The notes beneath the pieces were generated by a model that was not told the DNA's origin, made no database searches, and saw only the letters and a list, made by a program, of their open reading frames with translations. A stretch of DNA of 64,000 nt, from positions 62,001 through 126,000 of the forward strand of contig JBDKTA010000008.1 in assembly GCA_039680605.1 (NCBI GenBank), read 5' to 3'. This document shows, in pieces, positions 2,270 to 61,376 of this stretch; position 1 is the stretch's first letter; every line of letters starts with the position of its first letter. A program made the position numbers and the translations under genes. The stretch is from Planctomycetaceae bacterium (GTDB lineage: Bacteria; Planctomycetota; Phycisphaerae; SM23-33).

Positions 2270-5200
2270 ATGAGGAAATTGGCCACTTTCTTTGTCATCG
2301 CAGTGATGACGCTGGGGATGAGTACCGCCCAAGCCCAGACAGCGTATACCTGGGTTGGCTCGGATAACTCTTCGTGGATGACCGGCAGCAACTGGTCTCC
2401 GGAAGGCTACTCCGGCAGCTACAATGGCGGCGATACCTTTGCGATTTCCTCCGGCATCGCCAATGCCAACGGCAACACGTTCTACGACGCCCTGACGGTC
2501 AATGCCGGCGGCACGCTGGACATCACCGTCAATTGGGCGGCGCCGATGAACCTGACGTTGGCCGGCGGCACCGTGGCCAGCAGCCCCGGCGGCATGACGC
2601 AGCTGTACAACCACGGCTGGGGCGTGCTGAAGATCGACGACGTCGATCCGACTGCGGGCGTGACGGCCTCGACCGTCAACGTCGCCACGGGCACGGACTT
2701 CTACCTCAGCACGATTCTCAACATGGGCGCCGGCGGCAGCGGCAACCTGGTCAAGACCGGCGACGGCCTGCTGCGCCTCAATGGCGGCACGTTGGGCAAT
2801 TGGACCGGCACCCTCACCATCGACGGCGGCAAGGTTCGGCTTGAAAACGCCAACGCCCTGGCCAAGGGCACGGTGGTCGTGGACGGCGATGAGTTCCTCA
2901 TCGGCGCGGGCTTCAACAACGGCCAAGTGCTGGTACAGGCCGGCGGCGTCGCCGAAAACGACAACAACGGCGCCAAGATCGCCGCGCTGCACCTCCAGGG
3001 CGGCACGCTTAAGGGCTACAACAACTGGCAGATCGGCAACGGCGGCAGTAACGGGAGCAAGATCTACGTGGACAGCGCTTCGACGATCACCTCGGTGAAC
3101 GCCGGGCAGGACTTCTACATCGGCGCCCAGCTTTACGGCACGGGCGACCTGCTGATCAGCGGCCCCGGGCGAGTCGGGCTCAATAACGACCGCGCCGGCG
3201 TCTATTACAGCGGCACGATCACCATCGACAGCGGCAGCACGCTGCGGATGTGGAATCAGTACGGTCTGTCCGGCGGCACGGTCAACGTGACCGGTTCGGG
3301 CGGGCTGTTCCAGATCGGCGAGGGTTTTGCCAACGGCCAGGTGAACGTCCAGACCGGCGGCGTGGCCTACACGGATGGAAATAACAACTACGTGAGCAAC
3401 CTGCACCTGCAGGGCGGCGATCTGCAGGGCGACGGCTGGCGGGGCGTCGGCAACGGCGGCAACAACGGCAGCAAGATCTTTGTCGACAACGCCTCGACGA
3501 TTTCCTCGATGAACGCCGACCAGGACTTCTACGTCAACGCCCAGCTCAACGGCTCGGGCGACCTGGTCATGAGCGGCCCCGGGCGTGTCGTCCTGAGCAA
3601 CGACAAATCCGGCACGGCTTACAGCGGCACGATCACCATCGACAGCGGCACTACGCTGCGGATGGGCAACCAGTACGCTCTGTCCGGCGGCACGGTTAAT
3701 GTGACCGGCTCGGGCGGGCTGTTTCAGATCGGCCAAGGCATCAACGGCGGGCAGGTGAACGTCCAGACGGGCGGCATCGCGTACAACGACGACAACAATA
3801 CGTACGTGGGCAACCTCCACCTGCAGGGCGGCACGCTGCAGGGCGACGGCTGGCGCGGCGTGGGCAACGGCGGCAACAGCGGCAGCAAGATCTATGTGGA
3901 CAGCGATTCGACGATTTCGTCCATGAACGCCGACCAGGACTTCTACATCAACGCCCGGCTTAACGGGACCGGAGACCTGCTCGCAAGCGGACCGGGGCGC
4001 GTCGTCCTGAACAACGACAAGTCCGGCACGGCCTATAGCGGCACGATCACCATCGACAGCGGGACGACGCTGCGGATGGGCAATCAGTATGCTCTGTCCG
4101 GCGGCACGATCAACGTGACCGGCTCGGGCGGGCTGTTCCAGATCGGCCAGGGCATCAATGGCGGTCAGGTGAACGTCCAGACCGGCGGCGTGGCGTACAA
4201 CGACGACAACAATACCTACGTCGGGAATCTCCACCTGCAGGGCGGCACACTGCAGGGCGATGGAAACCGCAGCGTCGGCAACGGCGGCAACAGCGGCAGC
4301 AAGATTTACATCGACAGCGCCTCGACGATTTCCTCGGTCACGGCCGGGCAGGAGTTCTACATCAACGCACGGCTGTACGGGACGGAAAATCTGTTGATCA
4401 GTGGTCCGGGACTGACGCAGCTTAATAATGACAAGATCGGAACGGCCTATACCGGGACGATCACGATTGACAGCGGCAGCACCCTGCGGATGAGCAATCC
4501 CAACGGTCTGTCCGGCGGCACGGTCAGTGTCACCGGCACGGGCGGGCTGTTCCGACTCGGCGAAGGCTTCGCCAGCGGCCGCGTGAATGTCCTCACCGGC
4601 GGCGTGGCTGAAAGCGACGGCCACTACAAGCAGCTCGCCAACCTGCACCTCGATGGCGGTACGCTCAAGGGCACCAACGGCCAGTATGTCGGGCAGGGCA
4701 CGGGCAACAGCGTTATCACCGTCGACAGCTCCTCGAACATAGAGATGACCAACGCCGACGAGAATATGTACCTGTACGCCAAGCTGCTGGGCAGCGGGAC
4801 GCTGAACAAGGTCGGCGACGGCAACTTGTGGCTGATGAACGCCAGCACCAGCTTCACCGGCGACTGGTCGGTCAACACCGGTAATCTGTACCTCAACGCG
4901 GCCGACTCGACGGGCAACGGTGGCGGCATGTTGAGCATCGCCTCCGGCGCCGGGGTCGTCTACCAGGACGGCGGCGTGACCAATGTGAACGTCTCGCAGT
5001 TCACCCTGGGCGGATACCTCTTCACCAAGGACAACGCCTATAACGCCAACGACTGGTATGACATCACTCAGACCTACCAGGCGGATGATGGCACATCGGT
5101 CGATTTCGCCAGCTACTTCACCGGTTCAGCCGGCGAGAAGATCACGATCTACTCCGTTCCGCCCTCGACGCTGTACACCTGGGTCGGCGGCGACAGTGAC

Positions 5201-7999
5201 TGGCAGACCACCACGCAGTGGCAGGACAGCGAAAGCAACAATCCCTCGAACTTTACCAGCGGCAACGAGTTCGACCTGGCCGGCGGCACGGCCACCACGG
5301 GCAACGGCAATACGTTCGCCGACCGCCTGAACGTCAAGGACACCGGCACGCTGTCGGTTAACTCCGACCGCACGGCCAGTAACATCCATCTGGACGGCGG
5401 CGTGATCGAAGGCGTGTCCAACGACGCCCGCATCCGTGGGAGGATTACCGTCGACAGCGCCTCGACCATCAGCAACAACGCCGGCGCCGGCACCAACTTC
5501 TATGTGAACTCGCAGTTGGCCGGCACGGGCAATCTGCTGATCAGCGGCGACGGAACCGTGCGGCTTGAGAACGGCACCGCCGACGAGACGTACAGCGGCA
5601 CGATCACCATCGCCAGCGGCACGACGCTGCGAATGCAGAACCAGTACGGTCTGTCGGGCGGTACGGTGAACGTCAATGGCGACGGCGGGCTGTTCCAGAT
5701 CGGCGAAGGCTTCGCCATCGGCCGCGTGAACGTCAACAGCGGCGCGGTCGCCGAAGTGACCAATTGGTGGAACCCGGTCGTCAACCTGCACCTGGCCGGC
5801 GGTACGCTGCGCAAGGAAGTGAACGTCGGCGATCTCGGCGTTGGCAACGGCAGCAGCAGCAGCGCCATCTATATCGATAGCGCCTCCACGATTTCCAGCG
5901 ACAACGGCCAGACGCTGTACATCAATGCCCCGCTGTACGGGACGGGCGCGCTGGCCATCGCCGGCGACGGCCGCGTGTATCTCCAGGGTGATCTGTCCGA
6001 CGACACTTACAGCGGCACGATCACGATTGGCAGCGCCGCCACGCTGCGGATGAACAATCAGTACGGTCTGTCGGGCGGCACGCTGAATATCGTCGCCGGC
6101 AGCGGCACGTTCCTGACCGGCGAAGGCTTCAACAGCGGCCGCGTGAATGTCCAGACCGGCGGCGTCGCGACGGTGGATGGATGGAACAATCCGATCTCGA
6201 ATCTCCACCTTGCCGGCGGTACGCTGACCAAGAATGTCGGCAGCGGCGACCGGTATATCGGCAACGGCAGTTCGAGCAATATCTACATGGATAGCGCCTC
6301 GACGATTTCCAGCGACAACGGCGAGATCCTGTACGTCGCCGCCGTGCTCAACGGCACGGGTAATCTCGCGATTGCCGGCAACGGCCGCGTGCACCTCCAA
6401 GGCGACGCCTCGGACAGCACGTACAGCGGCACGATCACCGTCGGCAGCGCCGCGACGCTGCGGATGGGCAATCAGTACGGTCTGTCGGGCGGAACCGTGA
6501 ACCTTAACGGCAGCAGCGGCACCTTCCTGACCGGCGAAGGCATCAACAGCGGCCGGGTGAATGTCCAGACCGGCGGCGTCGCGACGGTGGACGGCTGGAA
6601 CAATCCGCTGTCGAATCTGCACCTTCAGGGAGGTACGCTCCGAAAGGATATCGGCAACGGCGACCGCTGGATCGGCAACGGCAGCTCGAGCAACATCACC
6701 GTGGACAGCGCCTCGACGATTTCCAGCGACAGCGGCCAGAGGTTGTACATCGGCGCCCTGCTGAAGGGCACGGGCAACCTGGCGATCGCCGGAGACGGCG
6801 TTGTTCAACTGCAGGGCGATTCGCCGGACGCCAACTACAGCGGCACGATCACGATCGCCGGCACCGCCACGCTGCGGATGGGCAACTCGTACGGCTTGGG
6901 CAACGGTACGGTGAATCTCACCGCCGCCAGCGGCGCCTTTGAGATCGGCTCGGGCTTCCGCACCGGACGCGTCAATGTGTATGCCGGCGGGCTGGCCAAG
7001 AACACCGACGGCCAGGCGCCTGTCTACAACATGCACCTCAACGGCGGTACGGTGGAAAACGTCAATGGCGGCAGTTACTGGTTTGGCGAGAACAACGACA
7101 ACAACAACCTGTACATCGAAAGCGCCGGCGGCACGATCAAGCAGGACACCGGTGCAGGCGACTGGATGTACATGGGCGTTGTGCTCAACGGCAGCGGCAA
7201 CCTGGCCAAGACCGGCGTGGGCGCTCTGTACTTCGACCGCAACAGTTCCGAGACCTACAGCGGCAACTGGGATATCCAGGGCGGCAAGCTGTACGTCAGG
7301 AACACCAGCGGCGACCGCAATGCCGCCGGTTCCCTCGGTTCCGGTGCGCAGGTCAATATCGCCACCGGCGCAGTCCTGGAGTTCGAGGATATCGGCGAGA
7401 ACTCCTGGACGATGAACAAGATGGTCACCGGCACGGGCACGGTGAAGATGGGATGGTATGACACCCTGACGATTGCCCGCAATCTGGCCAATACTGCCGG
7501 CGGCATCAACCCCGGCAACAGCGCGGGAATCACGACGGTCGATCTGTACTGCGATAGCAGCGACGCCCAGTACGGCGCCCTGAACTTCGCCAAGAATGAC
7601 CTGGGCCAGAATGCCCAGTGGTACATGGAGGTCCTGGGCGTCGACGGCGTGGCTGGCGAGGATTACGACCAGATCGTCCTGACCCACAGCGGGTCAAGCT
7701 ATGCGAAGCTGACGGGTCTGTCGAACGTTGATCTGTACGTCGACGTGTCGGCCCTGGGCGTCGGTCTCGACCCCGGCGTCGTGACGATTTTCACCGGCGC
7801 CACCAATGACATCAGTTCGATGTCCTTCGCCAACGTGTACTGGATCGGCGGCACGGGCAGCGTTAACTATAATTTCATCGACGGACTGGGCACCATCACT
7901 CTGACTGACGTGGTGGTGGATGTCCCCGAGCCGGCGACCATGGCTCTGCTGGTCCTGGGCGCAGTGGCCGTGGTGATTCGCCGCCGCCGTCGGGCATAA
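2270..7999 (+). CDS. Giant repetitive PEP-CTERM surface protein (autotransporter-associated beta-strand repeats)
   Basis: A 1909-residue secreted protein. The start is ATG 2270 with AAAGGAG at 2257-2263. A signal peptide (MRKLATFFVIAVMTLGMSTAQA) leads into Gly/Asn/Ser/Thr-rich repeats such as GTITIDSGTTLRM, GGTVNVTGSGGLFQIG and NLHLQGGTLQG. These resemble the beta-strand repeats of autotransporter passengers and should form a long beta-helix. Repeats of about 138 residues fall in two blocks of four, joined by a spacer starting TYTWVGGDSDWQ that echoes the N-terminus. The C-terminus is a PEP-CTERM signal: VPEPATM, a hydrophobic helix, then RRRRR. No autotransporter barrel is seen, so sorting should be by an exosortase-like system not encoded here. 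Likely a surface or matrix fibre. Confidence 0.92.
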   Translation: MRKLATFFVIAVMTLGMSTAQAQTAYTWVGSDNSSWMTGSNWSPEGYSGSYNGGDTFAISSGIANANGNTFYDALTVNAGGTLDITVNWAAPMNLTLAGGTVASSPGGMTQLYNHGWGVLKIDDVDPTAGVTASTVNVATGTDFYLSTILNMGAGGSGNLVKTGDGLLRLNGGTLGNWTGTLTIDGGKVRLENANALAKGTVVVDGDEFLIGAGFNNGQVLVQAGGVAENDNNGAKIAALHLQGGTLKGYNNWQIGNGGSNGSKIYVDSASTITSVNAGQDFYIGAQLYGTGDLLISGPGRVGLNNDRAGVYYSGTITIDSGSTLRMWNQYGLSGGTVNVTGSGGLFQIGEGFANGQVNVQTGGVAYTDGNNNYVSNLHLQGGDLQGDGWRGVGNGGNNGSKIFVDNASTISSMNADQDFYVNAQLNGSGDLVMSGPGRVVLSNDKSGTAYSGTITIDSGTTLRMGNQYALSGGTVNVTGSGGLFQIGQGINGGQVNVQTGGIAYNDDNNTYVGNLHLQGGTLQGDGWRGVGNGGNSGSKIYVDSDSTISSMNADQDFYINARLNGTGDLLASGPGRVVLNNDKSGTAYSGTITIDSGTTLRMGNQYALSGGTINVTGSGGLFQIGQGINGGQVNVQTGGVAYNDDNNTYVGNLHLQGGTLQGDGNRSVGNGGNSGSKIYIDSASTISSVTAGQEFYINARLYGTENLLISGPGLTQLNNDKIGTAYTGTITIDSGSTLRMSNPNGLSGGTVSVTGTGGLFRLGEGFASGRVNVLTGGVAESDGHYKQLANLHLDGGTLKGTNGQYVGQGTGNSVITVDSSSNIEMTNADENMYLYAKLLGSGTLNKVGDGNLWLMNASTSFTGDWSVNTGNLYLNAADSTGNGGGMLSIASGAGVVYQDGGVTNVNVSQFTLGGYLFTKDNAYNANDWYDITQTYQADDGTSVDFASYFTGSAGEKITIYSVPPSTLYTWVGGDSDWQTTTQWQDSESNNPSNFTSGNEFDLAGGTATTGNGNTFADRLNVKDTGTLSVNSDRTASNIHLDGGVIEGVSNDARIRGRITVDSASTISNNAGAGTNFYVNSQLAGTGNLLISGDGTVRLENGTADETYSGTITIASGTTLRMQNQYGLSGGTVNVNGDGGLFQIGEGFAIGRVNVNSGAVAEVTNWWNPVVNLHLAGGTLRKEVNVGDLGVGNGSSSSAIYIDSASTISSDNGQTLYINAPLYGTGALAIAGDGRVYLQGDLSDDTYSGTITIGSAATLRMNNQYGLSGGTLNIVAGSGTFLTGEGFNSGRVNVQTGGVATVDGWNNPISNLHLAGGTLTKNVGSGDRYIGNGSSSNIYMDSASTISSDNGEILYVAAVLNGTGNLAIAGNGRVHLQGDASDSTYSGTITVGSAATLRMGNQYGLSGGTVNLNGSSGTFLTGEGINSGRVNVQTGGVATVDGWNNPLSNLHLQGGTLRKDIGNGDRWIGNGSSSNITVDSASTISSDSGQRLYIGALLKGTGNLAIAGDGVVQLQGDSPDANYSGTITIAGTATLRMGNSYGLGNGTVNLTAASGAFEIGSGFRTGRVNVYAGGLAKNTDGQAPVYNMHLNGGTVENVNGGSYWFGENNDNNNLYIESAGGTIKQDTGAGDWMYMGVVLNGSGNLAKTGVGALYFDRNSSETYSGNWDIQGGKLYVRNTSGDRNAAGSLGSGAQVNIATGAVLEFEDIGENSWTMNKMVTGTGTVKMGWYDTLTIARNLANTAGGINPGNSAGITTVDLYCDSSDAQYGALNFAKNDLGQNAQWYMEVLGVDGVAGEDYDQIVLTHSGSSYAKLTGLSNVDLYVDVSALGVGLDPGVVTIFTGATNDISSMSFANVYWIGGTGSVNYNFIDGLGTITLTDVVVDVPEPATMALLVLGAVAVVIRRRRRA
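3211..4866 (+). repeat. Tandem 414-bp coding repeats, block 1 (four copies)
   Basis: The anchor cggcacgatcaccatcgaca and close variants recurs at 3211, 3625, 4039 and 4453, exactly 414 bases (138 codons) apart. The second and third copies are almost identical at DNA level, which points to recent duplication or gene conversion. Confidence 0.88.
5596..7254 (+). repeat. Tandem 414/417-bp coding repeats, block 2 (four copies)
   Basis: The same anchor recurs at 5596, 6013, 6427 and 6841 (417, 414 and 414 bases apart). Block 2 is more alike within itself than to block 1: its copies share STISSDNGQ-like and GNGSSS motifs absent from block 1. The two blocks therefore expanded separately. Confidence 0.85.
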
Positions 8000-8138: not shown

Positions 8139-9086
8139 ATGAACGAGCGGCATGTACAAGGCCTGGAGTCGGTGCTCCCGCAGATGCGCGGGTGCGTGTT
8201 GACCATCGGCAACTTCGACGGCGTACACGTGGGACATCGCCATATCATCGCCCGCGCGCGGGCGCTGGCCGATGGCGAGGGCGTGCCCGTCGTGGCTATG
8301 ACCTTCGACCCGCCCCCGGACCTGGTCATGCGCCCGCAGGACGCGCCGCTGCGCCTGACGCTGCCCCAGCGCCGCGCCGAACTGCTGCTCGAAGCCGGCG
8401 CCGATTATGTCGTCACGGCCCGCACCGACAAGGCCCTGCTGAGTCTGACAGCCGAGCAGTTCGTCGCGCGGGTCGTCATGGACCGCTTTGAGCCGCGGCA
8501 CGTGGTTGAGGGTGGCAACTTCTTCTTCGGCGCCAAGCGCGCCGGCAACATCGAATTACTCCGCCGCCGCGGGGCGGCCCTGGGCTTTTTCGTTCACGTG
8601 ATCGACCCGGTCCTGATCGAACTGGGCGGGCAGACCGTCCAGGTCTCCAGCACGCTCATCCGCACGCTGGTAGCCGCCGGGCGCGTGGAAGACGCCGCCC
8701 GCTGCCTGGGCGGTCTCTATACGCTGCAGGGGCCGGTCGTAATGGGGCGGCGCGTCGGGCGAAGCCTGGGCTTTCCCACGTGCAATATCGACACCGGACC
8801 GCTGGTCGTGCCCGCCGAAGGCGTCTATGCCGGATGGGCCTGCATTGGCTCTCAGCGAACTGCGGCCGCAATCAGCGTCGGCGCCAAGCCTACCTTTGAC
8901 GGGCAGGAGATTGTCGTTGAAGCCTTCCTGCTGGATTGGCAGGAAAGCGTCTATGATAAGATGATGTCCCTGGGCCTGCTGGAACGCCTGCGCGACCAGC
9001 AAAAGTTTTCCGGCCCCGAGGCCCTCAAGGCCCAGATATCCAAGGACGTGCAGCGTGTGCGAGAAATCTGCAACCGATCCCTTTAG
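8139..9086 (+). CDS. ribF: Bifunctional riboflavin kinase / FAD synthetase
   Basis: A 315-residue cytoplasmic enzyme that makes FMN from riboflavin and then FAD. The N-terminal nucleotidyltransferase domain shows TIGNFDGVHVGH (about residues 22-33) and VSSTLIRTL; the C-terminal flavokinase domain shows GRSLGFPTCNI, where Cys replaces the usual Ala in the PTAN motif. Length is normal for RibF. The ATG has no ribosome binding site but sits just downstream of a strong promoter. The last 32 bases overlap nrnA in another frame, so the two are co-transcribed. Confidence 0.96.
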   Translation: MNERHVQGLESVLPQMRGCVLTIGNFDGVHVGHRHIIARARALADGEGVPVVAMTFDPPPDLVMRPQDAPLRLTLPQRRAELLLEAGADYVVTARTDKALLSLTAEQFVARVVMDRFEPRHVVEGGNFFFGAKRAGNIELLRRRGAALGFFVHVIDPVLIELGGQTVQVSSTLIRTLVAAGRVEDAARCLGGLYTLQGPVVMGRRVGRSLGFPTCNIDTGPLVVPAEGVYAGWACIGSQRTAAAISVGAKPTFDGQEIVVEAFLLDWQESVYDKMMSLGLLERLRDQQKFSGPEALKAQISKDVQRVREICNRSL

Positions 9087-10059
9087 CCTGCTCTGCCGAC
9101 GCCTTTCGGCAGCCGCTTCGGTGCTCATCACCACGCACGCGCGGTCCGACGGCGATGCCCTGGGCTCGATGGCCGCCCTGGCCGGCGCCGCCCGCGCCGC
9201 GGGCAAGACCGTCGCCTGCGTCCTGCCCGACGCCCTGCCCGAGCGGTACACCTTCCTGTTTCCTGATGCGAAAGTACACGCCGGCGACCAGTTCGCCGCC
9301 CTGGCCGACGCTGCCGACCTCGTCGTGATTGTCGACACCTGCGCCGCCAGCCAGCTTGAAGGCATCGTCGACGCCATTGTCGCCCGGCGCGACAAAGTCG
9401 TCGTCATCGATCATCATCGCACCATCGACGACCTGGGCAGCGTCCAATGGGTGGATCCATCCGCGGCCGCGGCGGGCATTCTCGTCATGCAGATCATCCA
9501 GCACCTGCACTGGCAGATCCCTGCCGCCGTCGCCGAGGCGCTGATGGTGGCCATCACCACCGACACCGGATGGCTGCACTTTGCCAACACTGACGCCACG
9601 GCCTTGCGGGCGGTCGCCCAGTGCGTGGCCGCCGGGGTGCGTCCCGACGTGCTGTATAAGAAGCTCTACCAGACCGACCGCCCCGAGCGGCTCAAGCTGA
9701 TCGCCCGGGTGCTGGCAAGCCTGGAACTGCATTGCCAGGGAGCCTTGGCGGCGATGACGATCCGCAAGAGCGACTTTCTGGCCACCGGCGCCACGTACGA
9801 AGAGACCGAGAACCTCGTCAATGAAGCCCTGCGAATTGCGTCGGTCGAGACGGCCATCATCCTCGTCGAGAACGGAACGCTGGTGCGGATAAGCCTTCGC
9901 AGCCGCGACGCCGTCGACGTGGCGGAAATCGCCCGCCAGTACGGCGGCGGCGGTCACCGCCGTGCGGCCGGCGTGCGCCTCGCCGGAGATGTCGACGAAC
10001 TGAAAACCCAGTTTGTGAATCGATGCGCGGAGGCGCTCAAAGAAGCCGGCGTGAAGTAG
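9055..10059 (+). CDS. nrnA: DHH/DHHA1 phosphoesterase, NrnA-like nanoRNase / pAp phosphatase
   Basis: A 334-residue soluble enzyme of the Mn-dependent DHH family, expected to degrade short oligoribonucleotides and 3'-phosphoadenosine 5'-phosphate. The motifs are THARSDGDALGS (about residues 27-38), VIVDTC, the DHH motif in VIDHHRTIDD, and C-terminal GGGGHRRAAG of the DHHA1 domain. The start is GTG 9055, preceded by AAGGA 8 bases upstream and lying inside ribF. RibF and NrnA neighbours are common in bacteria near ribosome-maturation genes, which are not seen here. Confidence 0.94.
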   Translation: MCEKSATDPFSLLCRRLSAAASVLITTHARSDGDALGSMAALAGAARAAGKTVACVLPDALPERYTFLFPDAKVHAGDQFAALADAADLVVIVDTCAASQLEGIVDAIVARRDKVVVIDHHRTIDDLGSVQWVDPSAAAAGILVMQIIQHLHWQIPAAVAEALMVAITTDTGWLHFANTDATALRAVAQCVAAGVRPDVLYKKLYQTDRPERLKLIARVLASLELHCQGALAAMTIRKSDFLATGATYEETENLVNEALRIASVETAIILVENGTLVRISLRSRDAVDVAEIARQYGGGGHRRAAGVRLAGDVDELKTQFVNRCAEALKEAGVK

Positions 10060-10156
10060 CACGGGCATCTTGCCCGTGAGTCTCACGGGCGTCCCGCCCG
10101 TGATTCCCGATTGCATGGCCGAGACGGCCGTGCTACTCATGGGCGAGACGCCCATG
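10060..10156. repeat. Four tandem 19-nt palindromes
   Basis: Starting at the nrnA stop are four perfect or near-perfect hairpins, each with an 8-bp stem and 3-nt loop, at 10060-10078, 10084-10102, 10114-10132 and 10138-10156 (for example cacgggcgtcccgcccgtg and catgggcgagacgcccatg). The outer flanks gtagcac and gtgctac also match in reverse. They resemble REP-type intergenic elements and may end transcription before the riboswitch promoter. Confidence 0.8.
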
Positions 10157-10199
10157 CTACGGATCTGAGCCTCTGCGGTAAGTTTTTTCAGAACCCGGC

Positions 10200-10228
10200 T
10201 TGACAGGGCTCCGGAGATGCACTAGAAA
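10200..10228 (+). promoter_or_regulatory. Consensus promoter of the cobalamin riboswitch transcript
   Basis: TTGACA at 10200-10205, a 17-base spacer, and TAGAAA at 10223-10228. The predicted start near 10235 is at the 5' edge of the riboswitch. Confidence 0.85.
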
Positions 10229-10234
10229 GAGCAC

Positions 10235-10412
10235 ATCTGCAGGTGTTCGTCGACGACGGACCCAAGGGAAGGCCGTGAAAATCGGCCGCGGACGCGCCGC
10301 TGTAACCGGTGACGACCGCTGCACAGGCCACTGGATCGTTGTGTTAACGATCTGGGAAGGCGCAGCGGGAGGAAGATCCGGAAGCCAGAAGACCTGCCTG
10401 CCGATAACCTGG
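10235..10412 (+). promoter_or_regulatory. Cobalamin (adenosylcobalamin-type) riboswitch
   Basis: Conserved aptamer blocks appear in order: aagggaa at 10264-10270, gtgaaaatc at 10275-10283, the cgcggacgcgccgctgtaa block from about 10287, a cactgg...gggaaggcgcagc region from about 10330, and the B12 box gaagccagaagacctgcc ending at 10398. Edges are approximate. An intrinsic terminator follows 70 bases later, so control is probably by transcription attenuation: B12 present, terminator formed. The first gene downstream is a PEP-CTERM surface protein rather than a known B12 synthesis or transport gene. Confidence 0.93.
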
Positions 10413-10465
10413 TGCACCACCGCGAGTGTGTGGGTGCCGGTAACAATCCGCCTTCCAGCGCATTG

Positions 10466-10505
10466 TCCCGGAACTTGCTCCCGCGAGTGTCCGGGATTTT
10501 TCTTT
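10466..10505 (+). terminator. Riboswitch expression-platform terminator
   Basis: The stem tcccgga (10466-10472) pairs with tccggga (10490-10496) and is followed at once by TTTTTCTTT. Its position between the aptamer and the ATG at 10651 fits ligand-dependent termination. Confidence 0.8.
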
Positions 10506-10650
10506 GCCGCTCGCGACGAGGCGGAAAACGGGCCCGTTTCCCTCTTCGCGCCGGCACTTCAAGAACTCCCCCAGGTTTCTGTTCCCCGAGACGGTCCGCG
10601 TGCGGGCTGTCGGTTCCGTCTGTGCCCGAGGGCACAAAAGGAGTTGTGAG

Positions 10651-11214
10651 ATGTTCGGACGCAATGTGTTGACGGTAGTTGCAGTGTGCGGAGTGCTGGT
10701 CTTGGCCGCGTCGGCCCAGGCGGCGGTGTTTGACGGCGTTCAGGTCGAGGCGTGGACCGGAAGCGGCGCTAATGAGGCGGTGGTCGTAATCGATTTCGGC
10801 GTGGGCAAGAACTTTGCCTTTAGCTATCGCTGGGATGCAACCGCCACCGGTTGGGATGCGCTGGCGGCCATCGATGCCTCGGGCGCCATTGATGTGAATG
10901 CAACTTGGTACGATGCCTTCCAGGCACATCTGGTCAACGACATTTCCCGCACCGGCGTGACCAAGGATGACGGATATAGCTGGGGATACTACACCAGTTC
11001 TGACGGTAGCAGTTGGAGCGAGTATTCCATGGGCTGCGACGCTCGCCCGCTCAGTAATGGTGCGTGGGACGGCTGGTCCTGGGGCTGGATCGATTTTGAG
11101 ACATGGGCCCATCAGCGCTCGCCGGTCACTCCGGCCGTCGTGGTGCCTGAGCCGATCACGCTGGGACTGTTGTTGGTCGGCGGTGCAGCCCTGCTGCGCC
11201 GGCGGCATGCATAG
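10651..11214 (+). CDS. B12-riboswitch-controlled PEP-CTERM protein of unknown function
   Basis: A 187-residue secreted protein. ATG 10651 is chosen over upstream in-frame starts because AAAAGGAG (10636-10643) sits 7 bases before it and a signal peptide follows directly (MFGRNVLTVVAVCGVLVLAASAQA). The mature part is rich in Trp, Tyr and Asp (AFSYRWDATATGWDALAAID, DGYSWGYYTSSDG, GWSWGWIDFETWAH), and the C-terminus is a PEP-CTERM anchor (VVPEPITLGLLLVGGAALLRRRHA). I do not recognise the central domain. Because it lies behind a cobalamin riboswitch and is exported to the surface, a role in capturing extracellular corrinoids is a reasonable inference, unproven. Confidence 0.88.
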   Translation: MFGRNVLTVVAVCGVLVLAASAQAAVFDGVQVEAWTGSGANEAVVVIDFGVGKNFAFSYRWDATATGWDALAAIDASGAIDVNATWYDAFQAHLVNDISRTGVTKDDGYSWGYYTSSDGSSWSEYSMGCDARPLSNGAWDGWSWGWIDFETWAHQRSPVTPAVVVPEPITLGLLLVGGAALLRRRHA

Positions 11215-11243
11215 TTTAGTTAGATAACCTCCCAACAGACCGG

Positions 11244-11271
11244 ACCCGGGCCCTTGCCATGGGGCCCGGGT
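11244..11271 (+). terminator. Strong GC hairpin after the B12-linked PEP-CTERM gene
   Basis: acccgggccc (11244-11253) pairs with gggcccgggt (11262-11271) across an 8-base loop. No U-tract follows, so it may be a weak or factor-assisted terminator, or a processing site before the prepilin gene. Confidence 0.55.
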
Positions 11272-11299
11272 TCGGTACCGTTGGCTTAAGTGGCGTGAA

Positions 11300-12091
11300 A
11301 TGATCCAAGCGATAGACAAGACGATGCGAATCGGCCGCCAGGGCGGCTTTACGCTGATGGAACTGCTGGTGGTGATTGCCATCATCAGCGTGCTGACGGC
11401 GATGCTGGTGCCCACCATCAGCGGCGCGCTGAGTTCCGCCCGAGCGGTGCAGTGCCAGACCAACCTGCGGTATATCGGGTCGTCGATCAATAACTACCGC
11501 CGCGATCATGGCGACCAGTTTCCGCCATATCGCGCGCAATATAACGTGGCGTACGAGGGCACACCGGCGTTCACCTGGATCTACAGTTGGGGTGCGGCCA
11601 CCAACCCGGTCAACCAGAAGGCCAGTTGGATGTATCCCTACTGGGACTTCCACTGCCTGCTGTGCCCGTCGATGAACTGGAAAGACGTGGTGCCCCAGGC
11701 GGGCATTATCGAACCGACCACGTCATACGGGTACAATGCCTTCTTCCTCGACAGCAAGTTCATGACACGCGTCGGGGCGCCGACGATCGAGGTTCCCCGC
11801 AAGACCGGCGCCGACATCACGCACCCCTCGCAGTTGATCGTCTACGCCGACTCGGCGCTGTATTGGGCTCCGGCCGGCGTCCCGATCTTCCAGAACAGCA
11901 CGTACCTCGAGCCGCCCGTGCCCGCGGGCACCGTCACGCCGACCAATCACTTCCGCCATAGCGCCCAGTGCGGCGTCTTGTTTGCCTCAGGCAGCACCGG
12001 ATTGCTGCCGCCGGGCCAGGGAATGCTGCTCAACGCGCAGCGAAACCTGGGATTCGTCAGCACCGCCAATGCCCCATACTACAGCAACTAA
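11300..12091 (+). CDS. Planctomycete prepilin-like (type II secretion pseudopilin-like) protein
   Basis: A 263-residue protein with a type IV prepilin N-terminus: a short basic leader, then GGFTLMELLVVIAIISVLTAMLVPTI (about residues 15-40), with cleavage expected between Gly and Phe. The remainder is a globular domain rich in Tyr and Trp. Planctomycete members of this group usually end with H-x9-DG; here the matching site is HSAQCGVLFASG, with Ser for Asp. It follows the riboswitch-controlled gene on the same strand with an 85-base gap, so it could be read through from the same promoter. The specific role is unknown. Confidence 0.87.
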   Translation: MIQAIDKTMRIGRQGGFTLMELLVVIAIISVLTAMLVPTISGALSSARAVQCQTNLRYIGSSINNYRRDHGDQFPPYRAQYNVAYEGTPAFTWIYSWGAATNPVNQKASWMYPYWDFHCLLCPSMNWKDVVPQAGIIEPTTSYGYNAFFLDSKFMTRVGAPTIEVPRKTGADITHPSQLIVYADSALYWAPAGVPIFQNSTYLEPPVPAGTVTPTNHFRHSAQCGVLFASGSTGLLPPGQGMLLNAQRNLGFVSTANAPYYSN

Positions 12092-12554
12092 GACATTGCG
12101 GATTGTGGATTACGGATTGCGGATTGCGGCGACGGCGTCCTTCCGCACCTTGACCGGTGCGACATTGTTCTGCTGCTGCGGACTCTTTGCTGCCCTCTGC
12201 GGCTGCTCGGGCGATTACCCGCGCAAGGAACTGAAGGACGATTCGCCCCGCGCCGCGCAGGTCAAGGACATGATCACCCAACTCCGGACGGCCGCAACGA
12301 ATGAACTCGATGCCGTCATCGCCGCCCAGGTGGTTCCGGCAGGACCCAACGACGGCGGGCGGCGCGAGATGGCCGTCTACACCCTCAAGCAGATCGCCAA
12401 TGCCCCGGATGTGCAGATCGTGATGCTCGACCAGTACGGCAGCGACGTGGTCCGCGCGACTCTTCGTCTGACTGAAAGTCACCAGCCGCGAACGCTCTGC
12501 ATGCTGCTGGTCAGCGACGGGCAAGGCAAACTCCTCTGGGCAGGCCCGGGCTGA
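12069..12554 (+). CDS. Putative lipoprotein, unknown function
   Basis: The coding frame runs to TGA at 12554, but the start is uncertain. ATG 12069 overlaps the preceding gene by 23 bases; GTG 12105 lies within a run of ggattgcggatt repeats. In either case the N-terminus carries a hydrophobic stretch (LTGATLFCCCGLFAALCGC) ending in a lipobox-like LCGC-SG, followed by about 110 polar residues with no motif I recognise. It may be anchored to a membrane by lipidation. Neither start has a good ribosome binding site, so it may be translated by coupling to the gene upstream. Confidence 0.6.
   Translation: MPHTTATKTLRIVDYGLRIAATASFRTLTGATLFCCCGLFAALCGCSGDYPRKELKDDSPRAAQVKDMITQLRTAATNELDAVIAAQVVPAGPNDGGRREMAVYTLKQIANAPDVQIVMLDQYGSDVVRATLRLTESHQPRTLCMLLVSDGQGKLLWAGPG
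12093..12128. repeat. Short degenerate tandem repeat (ggattgcggatt units)
   Basis: Four back-to-back variants of attgcgg / attgtgg / attacgg lie between the prepilin stop and the lipoprotein signal sequence. They form part of the lipoprotein reading frame if ATG 12069 is used. Confidence 0.55.
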
Positions 12555-59122: not shown

Positions 59123-60487
59123 TCAGGGCATCCAGAAGCGGTTGCGCAGGTCTTCGTACTGGGGGTCAATGTCAGCCGGCGCCATCGACCGCACCGAACC
59201 GTCCACCAGCAGCGCGTTGACGCGCCCGCGGTGGCGGGCGAAGTCCGCCTGTCCGTCGCCGTCAGCGTCCCACGCCGGGGCCGTCCAGTCATCTTCTTCG
59301 GGCTTGACGATCGTGTCGCCGTAGTCCATCGCGAAGATCTGCTCCTGGCGCGACATCGACCCAGCCCCCGAGTTCATGCCGTAGTTGGTGCAGTTGAACC
59401 CGCTTTGCGCGCCGCCGCCGGCGCCGCCCGAGCCTTCATCCCCACCCGAGCCGCCGCCCAACAGAATCCAGTCGTCGCGGCCGTTGCAGGCGCTCTCCCA
59501 GTTCGGGTAGTTCGGGCAGAGCTGGCTCATCTGGCACTTGGCGTTGATCAGCAGCGGGCCCGGACCGCACGTCAGGTCGCCGATGGTCTGACCGGGCTGG
59601 GGCACCGGGTAGATCCGCGTCTCGCTGACCCACAGGCCGTGGAGCATGCTCATCGAGAACGCCGAGCCCGAGATCAACTGCGTCGTGCCCTTGCTGGTGA
59701 CGACCGTCTCGTTGGCCTGGCTGATCAGCGTCAGCAGATGTCCCGGCGCCGAGGCGGCTTCCCAGTGCGTCCAGAGCTTCTCGCCTCCGGCGGCGGGCTC
59801 GGTCTTCATAAAGTAGCTGCAGTATCGACCGGCAAACCAGCCGACGTTGACGGCCCAATACGACACGCCCGTGCCGTCGGGTTCGTAGATGTAGGAGGGC
59901 GGGCCCCAGCGGTTCAGATCGGTGTACCAGACGAACCAGAACGCTTCCGGATCGCCCAGATGGCGCCGCGGAGTCTGCCCGCCGTAGCTGTCGCCCGCCG
60001 TGATCGTGTCGCGCTGACGCTGCGAGAAGTGGATGATCCACGGGCTGTCGTCATCCAGCGGCACCCCGCCGATGGGCCAGCCGGCGTAGTCGCTCGAATA
60101 CCACACGCCCCAGCCGCCGAAGACCTTGCACAGCACGTATTGTGCGGCGATGCCCGGCCCGCCCGGCACCGGGTCGGCGGGAGGATCTTCCTCGCTGCTT
60201 TGGGACACTGGCACCGGACCGTCAGGGCACAGGAACACCTTGGCCGCGTTGTCGACCTTGGGAAACAGCGTGACCTGCCAGTTGACCGTGCTGATCTGGC
60301 CGTTGGTCTTGCCCTCCTGCCGCGCCAGGGCGGCCGCGCTGCCGATGCTGCGAAGCTGCCCCGCGCAGATCGTCTCGTTGACGCGCCCCAGAAGGCTGCG
60401 CCCGGACGGAACCAGCAGCGTTACAAGAACCGCCAGCACCGCGATAACGATCAGCAGCTCCGTTAATGTGAAGGCCCTGCTTCTCAT
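59123..60487 (-). CDS. Prepilin-like protein with C-terminal H-x9-DG motif
   Basis: A 454-residue protein; ATG 60487 gives MRSRAFTLTELLIVIAVLAVLVTLLVPSGRSLLG, a type IV prepilin leader and helix with cleavage expected before Phe (Ala rather than Gly at -1). The C-terminus has HRGRVNALLVDGSVRSM, the H-x9-DG motif known from planctomycete prepilin-type proteins. The middle is long and includes a Gly/Ser-rich linker (GGGSGGDEGSGGAGGGAQSG). Likely a pseudopilin-like surface or secretion component. Confidence 0.88.
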   Translation of the reverse strand: MRSRAFTLTELLIVIAVLAVLVTLLVPSGRSLLGRVNETICAGQLRSIGSAAALARQEGKTNGQISTVNWQVTLFPKVDNAAKVFLCPDGPVPVSQSSEEDPPADPVPGGPGIAAQYVLCKVFGGWGVWYSSDYAGWPIGGVPLDDDSPWIIHFSQRQRDTITAGDSYGGQTPRRHLGDPEAFWFVWYTDLNRWGPPSYIYEPDGTGVSYWAVNVGWFAGRYCSYFMKTEPAAGGEKLWTHWEAASAPGHLLTLISQANETVVTSKGTTQLISGSAFSMSMLHGLWVSETRIYPVPQPGQTIGDLTCGPGPLLINAKCQMSQLCPNYPNWESACNGRDDWILLGGGSGGDEGSGGAGGGAQSGFNCTNYGMNSGAGSMSRQEQIFAMDYGDTIVKPEEDDWTAPAWDADGDGQADFARHRGRVNALLVDGSVRSMAPADIDPQYEDLRNRFWMP

Positions 60488-60643
60488 TCTGCCTTGCCCT
60501 GGAGACTCCTTGACAACAGTTGCTGCGATGGTATGAGAGGCCAAAGGTCATCTATCATATCCATCAGGAATTATTACCACAGTCATCTGGCAAAACAAGG
60601 CGGACCTTCGCCCATCGGCCATTGGGGGCTTGGCTGCAATGGA

Positions 60644-60713: not shown

Positions 60714-61376
60714 TTAGTTGTTGCGTCGTCTCTTCATCAGCGCCGCCAAGGAACCCAGCGCCAGCAGGCTCATCGTCGCCGGCTCGGGGATGGGCGAGAT
60801 ATTCAGGCGGACGTTGTCAAAGTGGTATCCGGCCGAGGGGTATCCGTTTAACCCGTCGTTGTCGTGGAGGACGACGATCAGGTTCTTGCCGATGAGCGAG
60901 GGGTCGAGGCCGGTCGTGTCGACGACAAGCGTCGTGTCGACGAACGTGCCTGCGGGAACGCTGGAGGGAGTGATCCACTGCGTCCCCAGACGCGTGCTGT
61001 TGGCGTCGTTGCCGGCAGAGAGGTAGATGTCCCACTGCGTCAGGTCGAACGGGAGATTGGCCGGACGCCCGGTCGCCACCGTCAGGGTGTAGATCATGTC
61101 GGCCTGCACGGTCACCCCGTCAACCTTCTGCCAGATTCGCCCGCCGAAGGTCGAGCCGCCGACCATGGTGGTGGTTCCGCCGGCCGGGGCAGGCAGCGAG
61201 CCGGAACTGGCGCCGGGGAATTCCGCGTCGGTCGGCTGGGCTGTCCAACCGCTGCCCCACACCGTCCAGCCGGTGCTGCCGGACTCGAAGCCGGGGTTGT
61301 TGATCGTGATGGGTGCGGCAACGGTCGCCCCGGCAAGAACCAGAACCGCTCCCGCAAAAGCGAATACGTGTTTCAT
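60714..61376 (-). CDS. PEP-CTERM surface protein
   Basis: A 220-residue exported protein: signal peptide MKHVFAFAGAVLVLAGATVAAP, then a beta-rich domain (INNPGFESGSTGWTVWGSGW, a carbohydrate-binding-module-like opening; FDNVRLNISP near the end), then PEP-CTERM anchor IPEPATMSLLALGSLAALMKRRRNN. GGAGA precedes the ATG. The N-terminal NPGFE-x-G pattern is common in planctomycete and verrucomicrobial surface proteins that bind glycans. Confidence 0.9.
   Translation of the reverse strand: MKHVFAFAGAVLVLAGATVAAPITINNPGFESGSTGWTVWGSGWTAQPTDAEFPGASSGSLPAPAGGTTTMVGGSTFGGRIWQKVDGVTVQADMIYTLTVATGRPANLPFDLTQWDIYLSAGNDANSTRLGTQWITPSSVPAGTFVDTTLVVDTTGLDPSLIGKNLIVVLHDNDGLNGYPSAGYHFDNVRLNISPIPEPATMSLLALGSLAALMKRRRNN

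Follow-up and report, generated by a model that had tools for sequence, protein, structure and literature searches.

What does a PEP-CTERM surface protein do behind a cobalamin riboswitch? The question is raised by a locus in the draft genome of a Planctomycetaceae bacterium of the class Phycisphaerae, from which we analyzed a stretch of 64,000 nucleotides (the window; contig JBDKTA010000008.1, positions 62,001 to 126,000). The original prediction was that a consensus promoter, a full B12 aptamer and an intrinsic terminator precede the gene for a small exported protein, which would capture corrinoids at the cell surface. The features of the locus are as follows.

8139–9086, plus strand: ribF-like gene, a conserved upstream neighbor outside the switch
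9055–10059, plus strand: gene for an nrnA-like DHH/DHHA1 phosphoesterase (Pfam DHH and DHHA1), upstream neighbor outside the switch
10200–10228, plus strand: sigma-70-type promoter, TTGACA-N17-TAGAAA, 10 of 12 consensus positions
10224–10415, plus strand: cobalamin riboswitch aptamer (RF00174), single copy in the genome
10464–10506, plus strand: intrinsic terminator, putative riboswitch expression platform, stem and T-run, −21.5 kcal/mol
10651–11214, plus strand: gene for a PEP-CTERM surface protein of 187 amino acids (TIGR02595, predicted fold)
11238–11275, plus strand: strong intercistronic hairpin lacking a T-run, situated between the genes for the PEP-CTERM protein and the pseudopilin (folding of the intergenic region)
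11300–12091, plus strand: gene for a pseudopilin with N-terminus GFTLMELLVV and weak DUF1559 similarity (N_methyl, TIGR02532)
about 12150–12554, plus strand: gene for a small lipoprotein with lipobox ...LCGC, likely TTG start (family A3)

The riboswitch and its expression platform

The Rfam covariance model RF00174 matched the aptamer over its full length (model positions 1–189) with 106.9 bits and an E-value of 9e-26, where the gathering score is 31.5 bits. This is the sole RF00174 copy in the 5.23-Mb draft genome, which is 95% complete. The promoter overlaps the start of the aptamer. A strict promoter scanner found no promoter upstream of the aptamer because it requires a T at the last −10 position, which here is the final A of TAGAAA; the promoter was instead inspected by hand and compared with relatives. 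Of 63 related loci, 76% have a promoter with at least 9 of 12 consensus positions where the aptamer starts, compared with 4% of shuffles. The terminator, TGTCCCGGAACTTGCTCCCGCGAGTGTCCGGGAT followed by TTTTCTTT, lies approximately 50 nt past the end of the aptamer, and such terminators were found 3' of the aptamer in 42 of the 63 related loci as compared with 12 of 315 shuffles. Because both promoter and terminator are far more frequent in related loci than in shuffled controls, the expression platform is most simply read as a B12-induced terminator. Repression by the ligand is the established direction of regulation for this riboswitch class, and we take the direction proposed here from the terminator and this known behavior. 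The promoter, whose position is kept in related loci, the complete aptamer and the terminator thus all stood as originally predicted. A cluster of short palindromic CACGGGC/GCCCGTG repeats occupies positions 10060–10160, just 5' of the promoter.

The genes behind the riboswitch

The riboswitch heads three genes on the same strand, encoding the PEP-CTERM protein, the pseudopilin and the small lipoprotein, and we infer that the three are co-transcribed. The pseudopilin and lipoprotein genes of this transcription unit had been overlooked in the original prediction. The intergenic region at 11215–11300 folds at −45 kcal/mol, and its very stable hairpin may set differing expression levels.

The PEP-CTERM gene is preceded by a Shine–Dalgarno sequence (GGAG at 10640), and its product has a signal peptide and, at the C-terminus, a PEP motif, a hydrophobic helix and a basic end. 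This sorting tail (about 11143–11208) scored 22.5 bits with TIGR02595, for which the cut-off is 16, and 18.3 bits with Pfam PF07589, just under the cut-off of 20.7. The genome encodes two exosortases (PF09721, 195.7 and 172.9 bits), and the protein is presumably anchored at the cell surface by exosortase activity. The signal peptide and the TIGR02595 match bear out the idea of a small exported PEP-CTERM protein.

The prepilin N-terminal motif of the pseudopilin was matched by PF07963 (N_methyl; 30.2 bits, cut-off 21.2) and by TIGR02532 (28 bits, cut-off 16.3), and the protein matches GspG, GspH and N_methyl models. The lipoprotein matched no Pfam or NCBIfam family; its own family (A3) was found in 15 loci and has an invariant G-C lipobox.

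Upstream of the switch, the ribF-like and nrnA-like genes form a pair that is syntenic in a relative (G010), where it is immediately preceded by BtuF and BtuC genes. Elsewhere in the window, a 1909-residue PEP-CTERM protein with repeated beta-strand modules and weak autotransporter-repeat matches is encoded at 2270–7999. On the minus strand, a PEP-CTERM gene (60714–61376) adjoins a pseudopilin-like gene (59123–60544), and this pair has no cobalamin riboswitch.

Predicted fold of the PEP-CTERM protein

The mature domain (10702–11136) was modeled with AlphaFold from 22 related sequences, which gave a pLDDT of 91.4 and a pTM of 0.86. When the model was compared with the PDB using Foldseek, ranks 1–19 were all transcobalamin, intrinsic factor, haptocorrin or the Ruminococcus gnavus protein 3u7z, with probabilities of 0.98–1.00 and E-values of 0.004–0.15, none of them below 0.001. 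VIA-align gave Z-scores of 11.4–12.5 for haptocorrin, transcobalamin, intrinsic factor and 3u7z; the next unrelated fold scored 6.9. Superposition on the transcobalamin-type structures gave an rmsd of 2.0–2.9 over 94–102 residues, and sequence identity to these structural matches is 8–15%. The predicted elements begin with strand, strand, helix, two strands and a further strand, and the model has a hairpin after the helix. This hairpin defines the transcobalamin clade and contacts B12, and the clade is widely represented in planctomycetes (Burroughs and colleagues, PMC1796856). The mature domain is thus predicted to adopt a beta-grasp fold, as seen in the beta domain with which transcobalamin and intrinsic factor bind B12.

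At the sequence level, the DUF4430 (PF14478) HMM matched neither the window protein nor anything else in its genome, and a profile–profile comparison of the window domain with DUF4430 using hhalign was weak (E-value 0.021, probability 2%). We therefore dropped a sequence-level link to DUF4430, and the likeness to transcobalamin is a statement about predicted structure. A PDB sequence search with the domain profile returned nothing relevant.

Recurrence in the class

RF00174 was present in 55 of 60 genomes searched (the window's own and relatives), mostly as a single copy. Downstream of 63 such elements there is a recurring plan of at least one PEP-CTERM gene, then the pseudopilin and, at 15 of the loci, also the lipoprotein. 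Of all genes in the locus, that for the pseudopilin is the most constant, with one clearly separated orthologue per genome. Its orthologue family (A2) consists of 43 sequences and was found in 114 of 120 genomes of the class.

In these 120 genomes the pseudopilin and the riboswitch were searched separately. In 98 of 112 genomes, the best pseudopilin match lay 154–5061 nt downstream of an RF00174 element and had the same orientation. For genomes outside model building this number is 64 of 75, which is the figure to trust because the pseudopilin model was built from riboswitch loci. In most of the misses, riboswitch and pseudopilin were on separate contigs of draft genomes. A riboswitch adjoined 100 of 116 pseudopilin matches of at least 150 bits, compared with one of 16 below 150 bits. 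Using a core-domain profile, we found the transcobalamin-like domain in 38 of the 120 genomes, almost always once; it was 179–1447 nt downstream of RF00174 in 36 of 40 matches and in 21 of 25 in unseen genomes. The pairing of riboswitch and surface protein, for which a survey of other planctomycetes had been proposed, therefore recurs, both with the pseudopilin and with the transcobalamin-like domain.

Other proteins behind the riboswitch

The window protein has no Pfam match to DUF4465 (PF14717), a family found in related loci only. DUF4465 proteins occupy the same slot in eight related loci, and two representatives that we tested matched PF14717 with E-values of 1e-52 and 1e-57. Experiments have demonstrated B12 binding by eight DUF4465 proteins that are only distantly related, one of them from Mucisphaera calidilacus, and their reported neighbors are TonB, ABC and propeller genes; the words PEP-CTERM and planctomycete are absent from that text (Clarke and colleagues, PMC13398666). 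The B12-binding motif of BtuJ is MNTPSY (PMC12751083), and most DUF4465 sequences of the related loci have MNTPAY (MNTPxY).

A third PEP-CTERM family fills the slot in about 36 loci. The model of this family (pLDDT 89.3) had BtuG1/BtuGH (Z 9.6) and BtuH (Z 9.2) as its two best PDB matches. Since carbohydrate-binding modules follow closely at 8.5, the resemblance to BtuGH/BtuH is only suggestive.

We also scanned GTDB genomes with a DUF4465 alignment, where riboswitches were recognized with our own sequence profile, not with Rfam. In 74 of the 80 DUF4465 loci returned, the same strand carried a sequence resembling a cobalamin riboswitch. The pseudopilin was nearly confined to the planctomycete loci among them, and the third family was common to planctomycete, Bacteroidota and Desulfobacterota loci. 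The assayed DUF4465 protein of the planctomycete Mucisphaera was absent from these 80 loci.

Several riboswitches precede genes of other kinds. In two loci (L051 and L088), PEP-CTERM genes encoding beta-propellers (NHL/SMP-30-like) that are reminiscent of BtuG lie directly behind the riboswitch. Riboswitches in genomes G006, G025 and G055 (L073, L081 on the plus strand, and L082) precede a radical SAM/SPASM enzyme; that of G055 is CbpB (TIGR04163, 697 bits) and the G006 and G025 copies look alike. Second riboswitches in G035 (L039) and G041 (L042) precede apparent class III and class I ribonucleotide reductases, which look like cases of the usual logic of B12-independent isozymes.

B12 use and import in the host genome

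The window's genome (G000) encodes 12 B12-binding domains. We use these as the argument for B12 use and dropped MetH, as the Met_synt_B12 activation domain is absent from this genome and most relatives. CobS was found neither in G000 nor in 19 of 20 relatives, which suggests that the bacterium is unable to complete a cobamide itself. For import, contig C22 of G000 encodes a BtuF-BtuC fusion and, next to it, an ABC ATPase (probable BtuD); this BtuFCD-like importer is assigned by similarity, with NCBIfam scores below the equivalog cut-offs.

No TonB-dependent receptor gene is present in the window operon, and the TonB plug domain (PF07715) was found neither in the draft genome G000 nor in the others that make up 30 of the 40 genomes searched (G000 included). 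With the same model, plugs were detected in the Gram-negative controls E. coli, Caulobacter and Bacteroides as well as in ten relatives. Absence from a draft is not proof, yet the pattern holds across relatives. One relative (G056) has no pseudopilin and carries a TonB-receptor-like gene under its riboswitch. Another (G001) has the pseudopilin together with a riboswitch-controlled BtuB-like gene, so we rejected a strict mutual exclusion of pseudopilin and BtuB.

Discussion

From these results we consider it very probable that the locus is a B12-repressed operon for corrinoid capture at the surface of a bacterium with no detected TonB receptors. When adenosylcobalamin is scarce, transcription would pass the terminator, and when it is plentiful, transcription would end about 80 nt past the aptamer. 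The first gene product would be exported, sorted by its PEP-CTERM tail and bind corrinoid at the cell surface, and the dedicated pseudopilin and small lipoprotein would be co-transcribed with it. Captured corrinoid would then cross the outer membrane, and BtuF-BtuC-BtuD, whose genes are located at another site in the genome, would import it.

That PEP-CTERM genes are common, making up three of 45 called genes in the window, could mean that one of them merely happens to follow the riboswitch. We give this practically no credence: most genomes of the class repeat the pairing with conserved order and spacing, unseen genomes included, and this recurrence refutes chance. A corrinoid as the ligand of the window protein is suggested by two independent lines of evidence, namely the predicted fold, which matches transcobalamin, intrinsic factor and haptocorrin, and the B12-binding family DUF4465, which fills the same slot in related loci. 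The fold alone is no proof of the ligand. In transcobalamin, B12 is sandwiched between two domains, of which the window protein has just the beta domain. The PEP-CTERM protein could instead bind cobalt, a metal chelate or another nutrient and simply be switched by B12 as isozymes are. The seemingly B12-independent ribonucleotide reductases and CbpB behind other riboswitches of the clade are consistent with this, as is 3u7z, the closest small bacterial relative in structure, which is annotated as a putative metal-binding protein. However, the well-characterized top structural matches are all corrinoid carriers, the alternative occupants of the slot belong to or resemble B12-binding families, and the BtuF and BtuC genes of G010 adjoin the locus there. 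We therefore judge a non-corrinoid ligand improbable, and together with the recurrence of the locus these data support the original prediction that the PEP-CTERM protein is probably corrinoid-capturing.

The role of the pseudopilin is less clear-cut. It may, with the lipoprotein, provide the outer-membrane route, where a pseudopilus or pilus-like structure moves the corrinoid bound by the PEP-CTERM protein and replaces BtuB; this extends the corrinoid-capture reading rather than excluding it. Such an uptake role is plausible because no other member of the locus is as constant as the pseudopilin, which is tied to the riboswitch there, and because paralogues in G000 (L187, contig C34, 4496–8313, minus strand) and in G046 (L189, contig C2, 3955–7607) are directly followed by genes for a periplasmic binding protein of the siderophore type and for a FecCD permease. 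The lack of PF07715 in so many genomes, the Bacteroidota DUF4465 loci with no pseudopilin, and the TonB-receptor-like gene of G056 point the same way. Yet pseudopilin and TonB receptors occur together in some genomes, such as G001 with its BtuB-like gene, and the pseudopilin could instead serve type II secretion of PEP-CTERM proteins, so we hold the uptake role to be tentative and rather unlikely. In the latter case pseudopilin and lipoprotein would be helpers of export and assembly, like a tip subunit of a type II secretion system, and the corrinoid would cross by another porin or channel. This is a real possibility that falls a little short of an even chance. The GspG and GspH matches, the need of PEP-CTERM proteins for transport across the outer membrane, and the position of the pseudopilin gene after the PEP-CTERM genes in the loci read all fit with it; by contrast, common PEP-CTERM genes do not all have such a partner, the large one at 2270–7999 being without, and the paralogous pseudopilin at the siderophore-type importer has no PEP-CTERM gene called next to it. 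Export of surface proteins by the pseudopilin is at least as plausible as the uptake role. It is rather unlikely that Phycisphaerae have a general TonB-independent outer-membrane route for large cofactors, in which the riboswitch-co-regulated pseudopilin replaces BtuB and its paralogue serves a siderophore-type ABC importer.

The proposed corrinoid-capture operon can be compared with the B12 uptake loci of Bacteroides, which have BtuB and the lipoproteins BtuG, BtuH, BtuJ and BtuK. Both are under cobalamin-riboswitch control with import by BtuFCD, and both employ several unrelated surface proteins for B12 in a single locus; the family DUF4465/BtuJ and a BtuH-like fold occur in the related planctomycete loci as well. 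By contrast, the planctomycete surface proteins have PEP-CTERM tails instead of lipid anchors, and the window locus combines a transcobalamin-type domain with a small lipoprotein and a dedicated pseudopilin and lacks a TonB receptor, of which none was detected in the genome either. The window domain shares with the beta domain of transcobalamin, intrinsic factor and haptocorrin (the SLBB clade, with bacterial DUF4430) the beta-grasp and post-helix hairpin at a Z of about 12 over about 100 residues. It differs from them in its low sequence identity and lack of a DUF4430 HMM match, in having no alpha/alpha-toroid partner domain, and in its place on a PEP-CTERM protein of a Gram-negative bacterium. 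In related genomes, DUF4465 proteins are encoded between the same riboswitch and the same pseudopilin gene, but they are beta-jellyrolls, a fold other than that of the window domain, and are absent from the window locus. Pseudopilins of the DUF1559 and Verru_Chthon types likewise have a prepilin N-terminus and are abundant in this bacterial group, whereas the orthologue group of the window is linked to the cobalamin riboswitch and has close to one copy per genome.

Our literature search, which covered open-access papers but neither subscription papers nor preprints, turned up no account of cobalamin riboswitches in planctomycetes or of a part for PEP-CTERM proteins in the uptake of B12. Because the locus recurs throughout the class and many of its members show no sign of TonB-dependent B12 receptors, an operon of this type is probably how many of these planctomycetes catch B12. 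This raises the question of how B12 passes the outer membrane where TonB receptors are not detected, for which the pseudopilin is a candidate, and its paralogue hints at a parallel route for siderophores. The results also provide a likely ligand for a class of PEP-CTERM proteins, and they suggest that a transcobalamin-type fold is used in surface B12 capture by Gram-negative bacteria.
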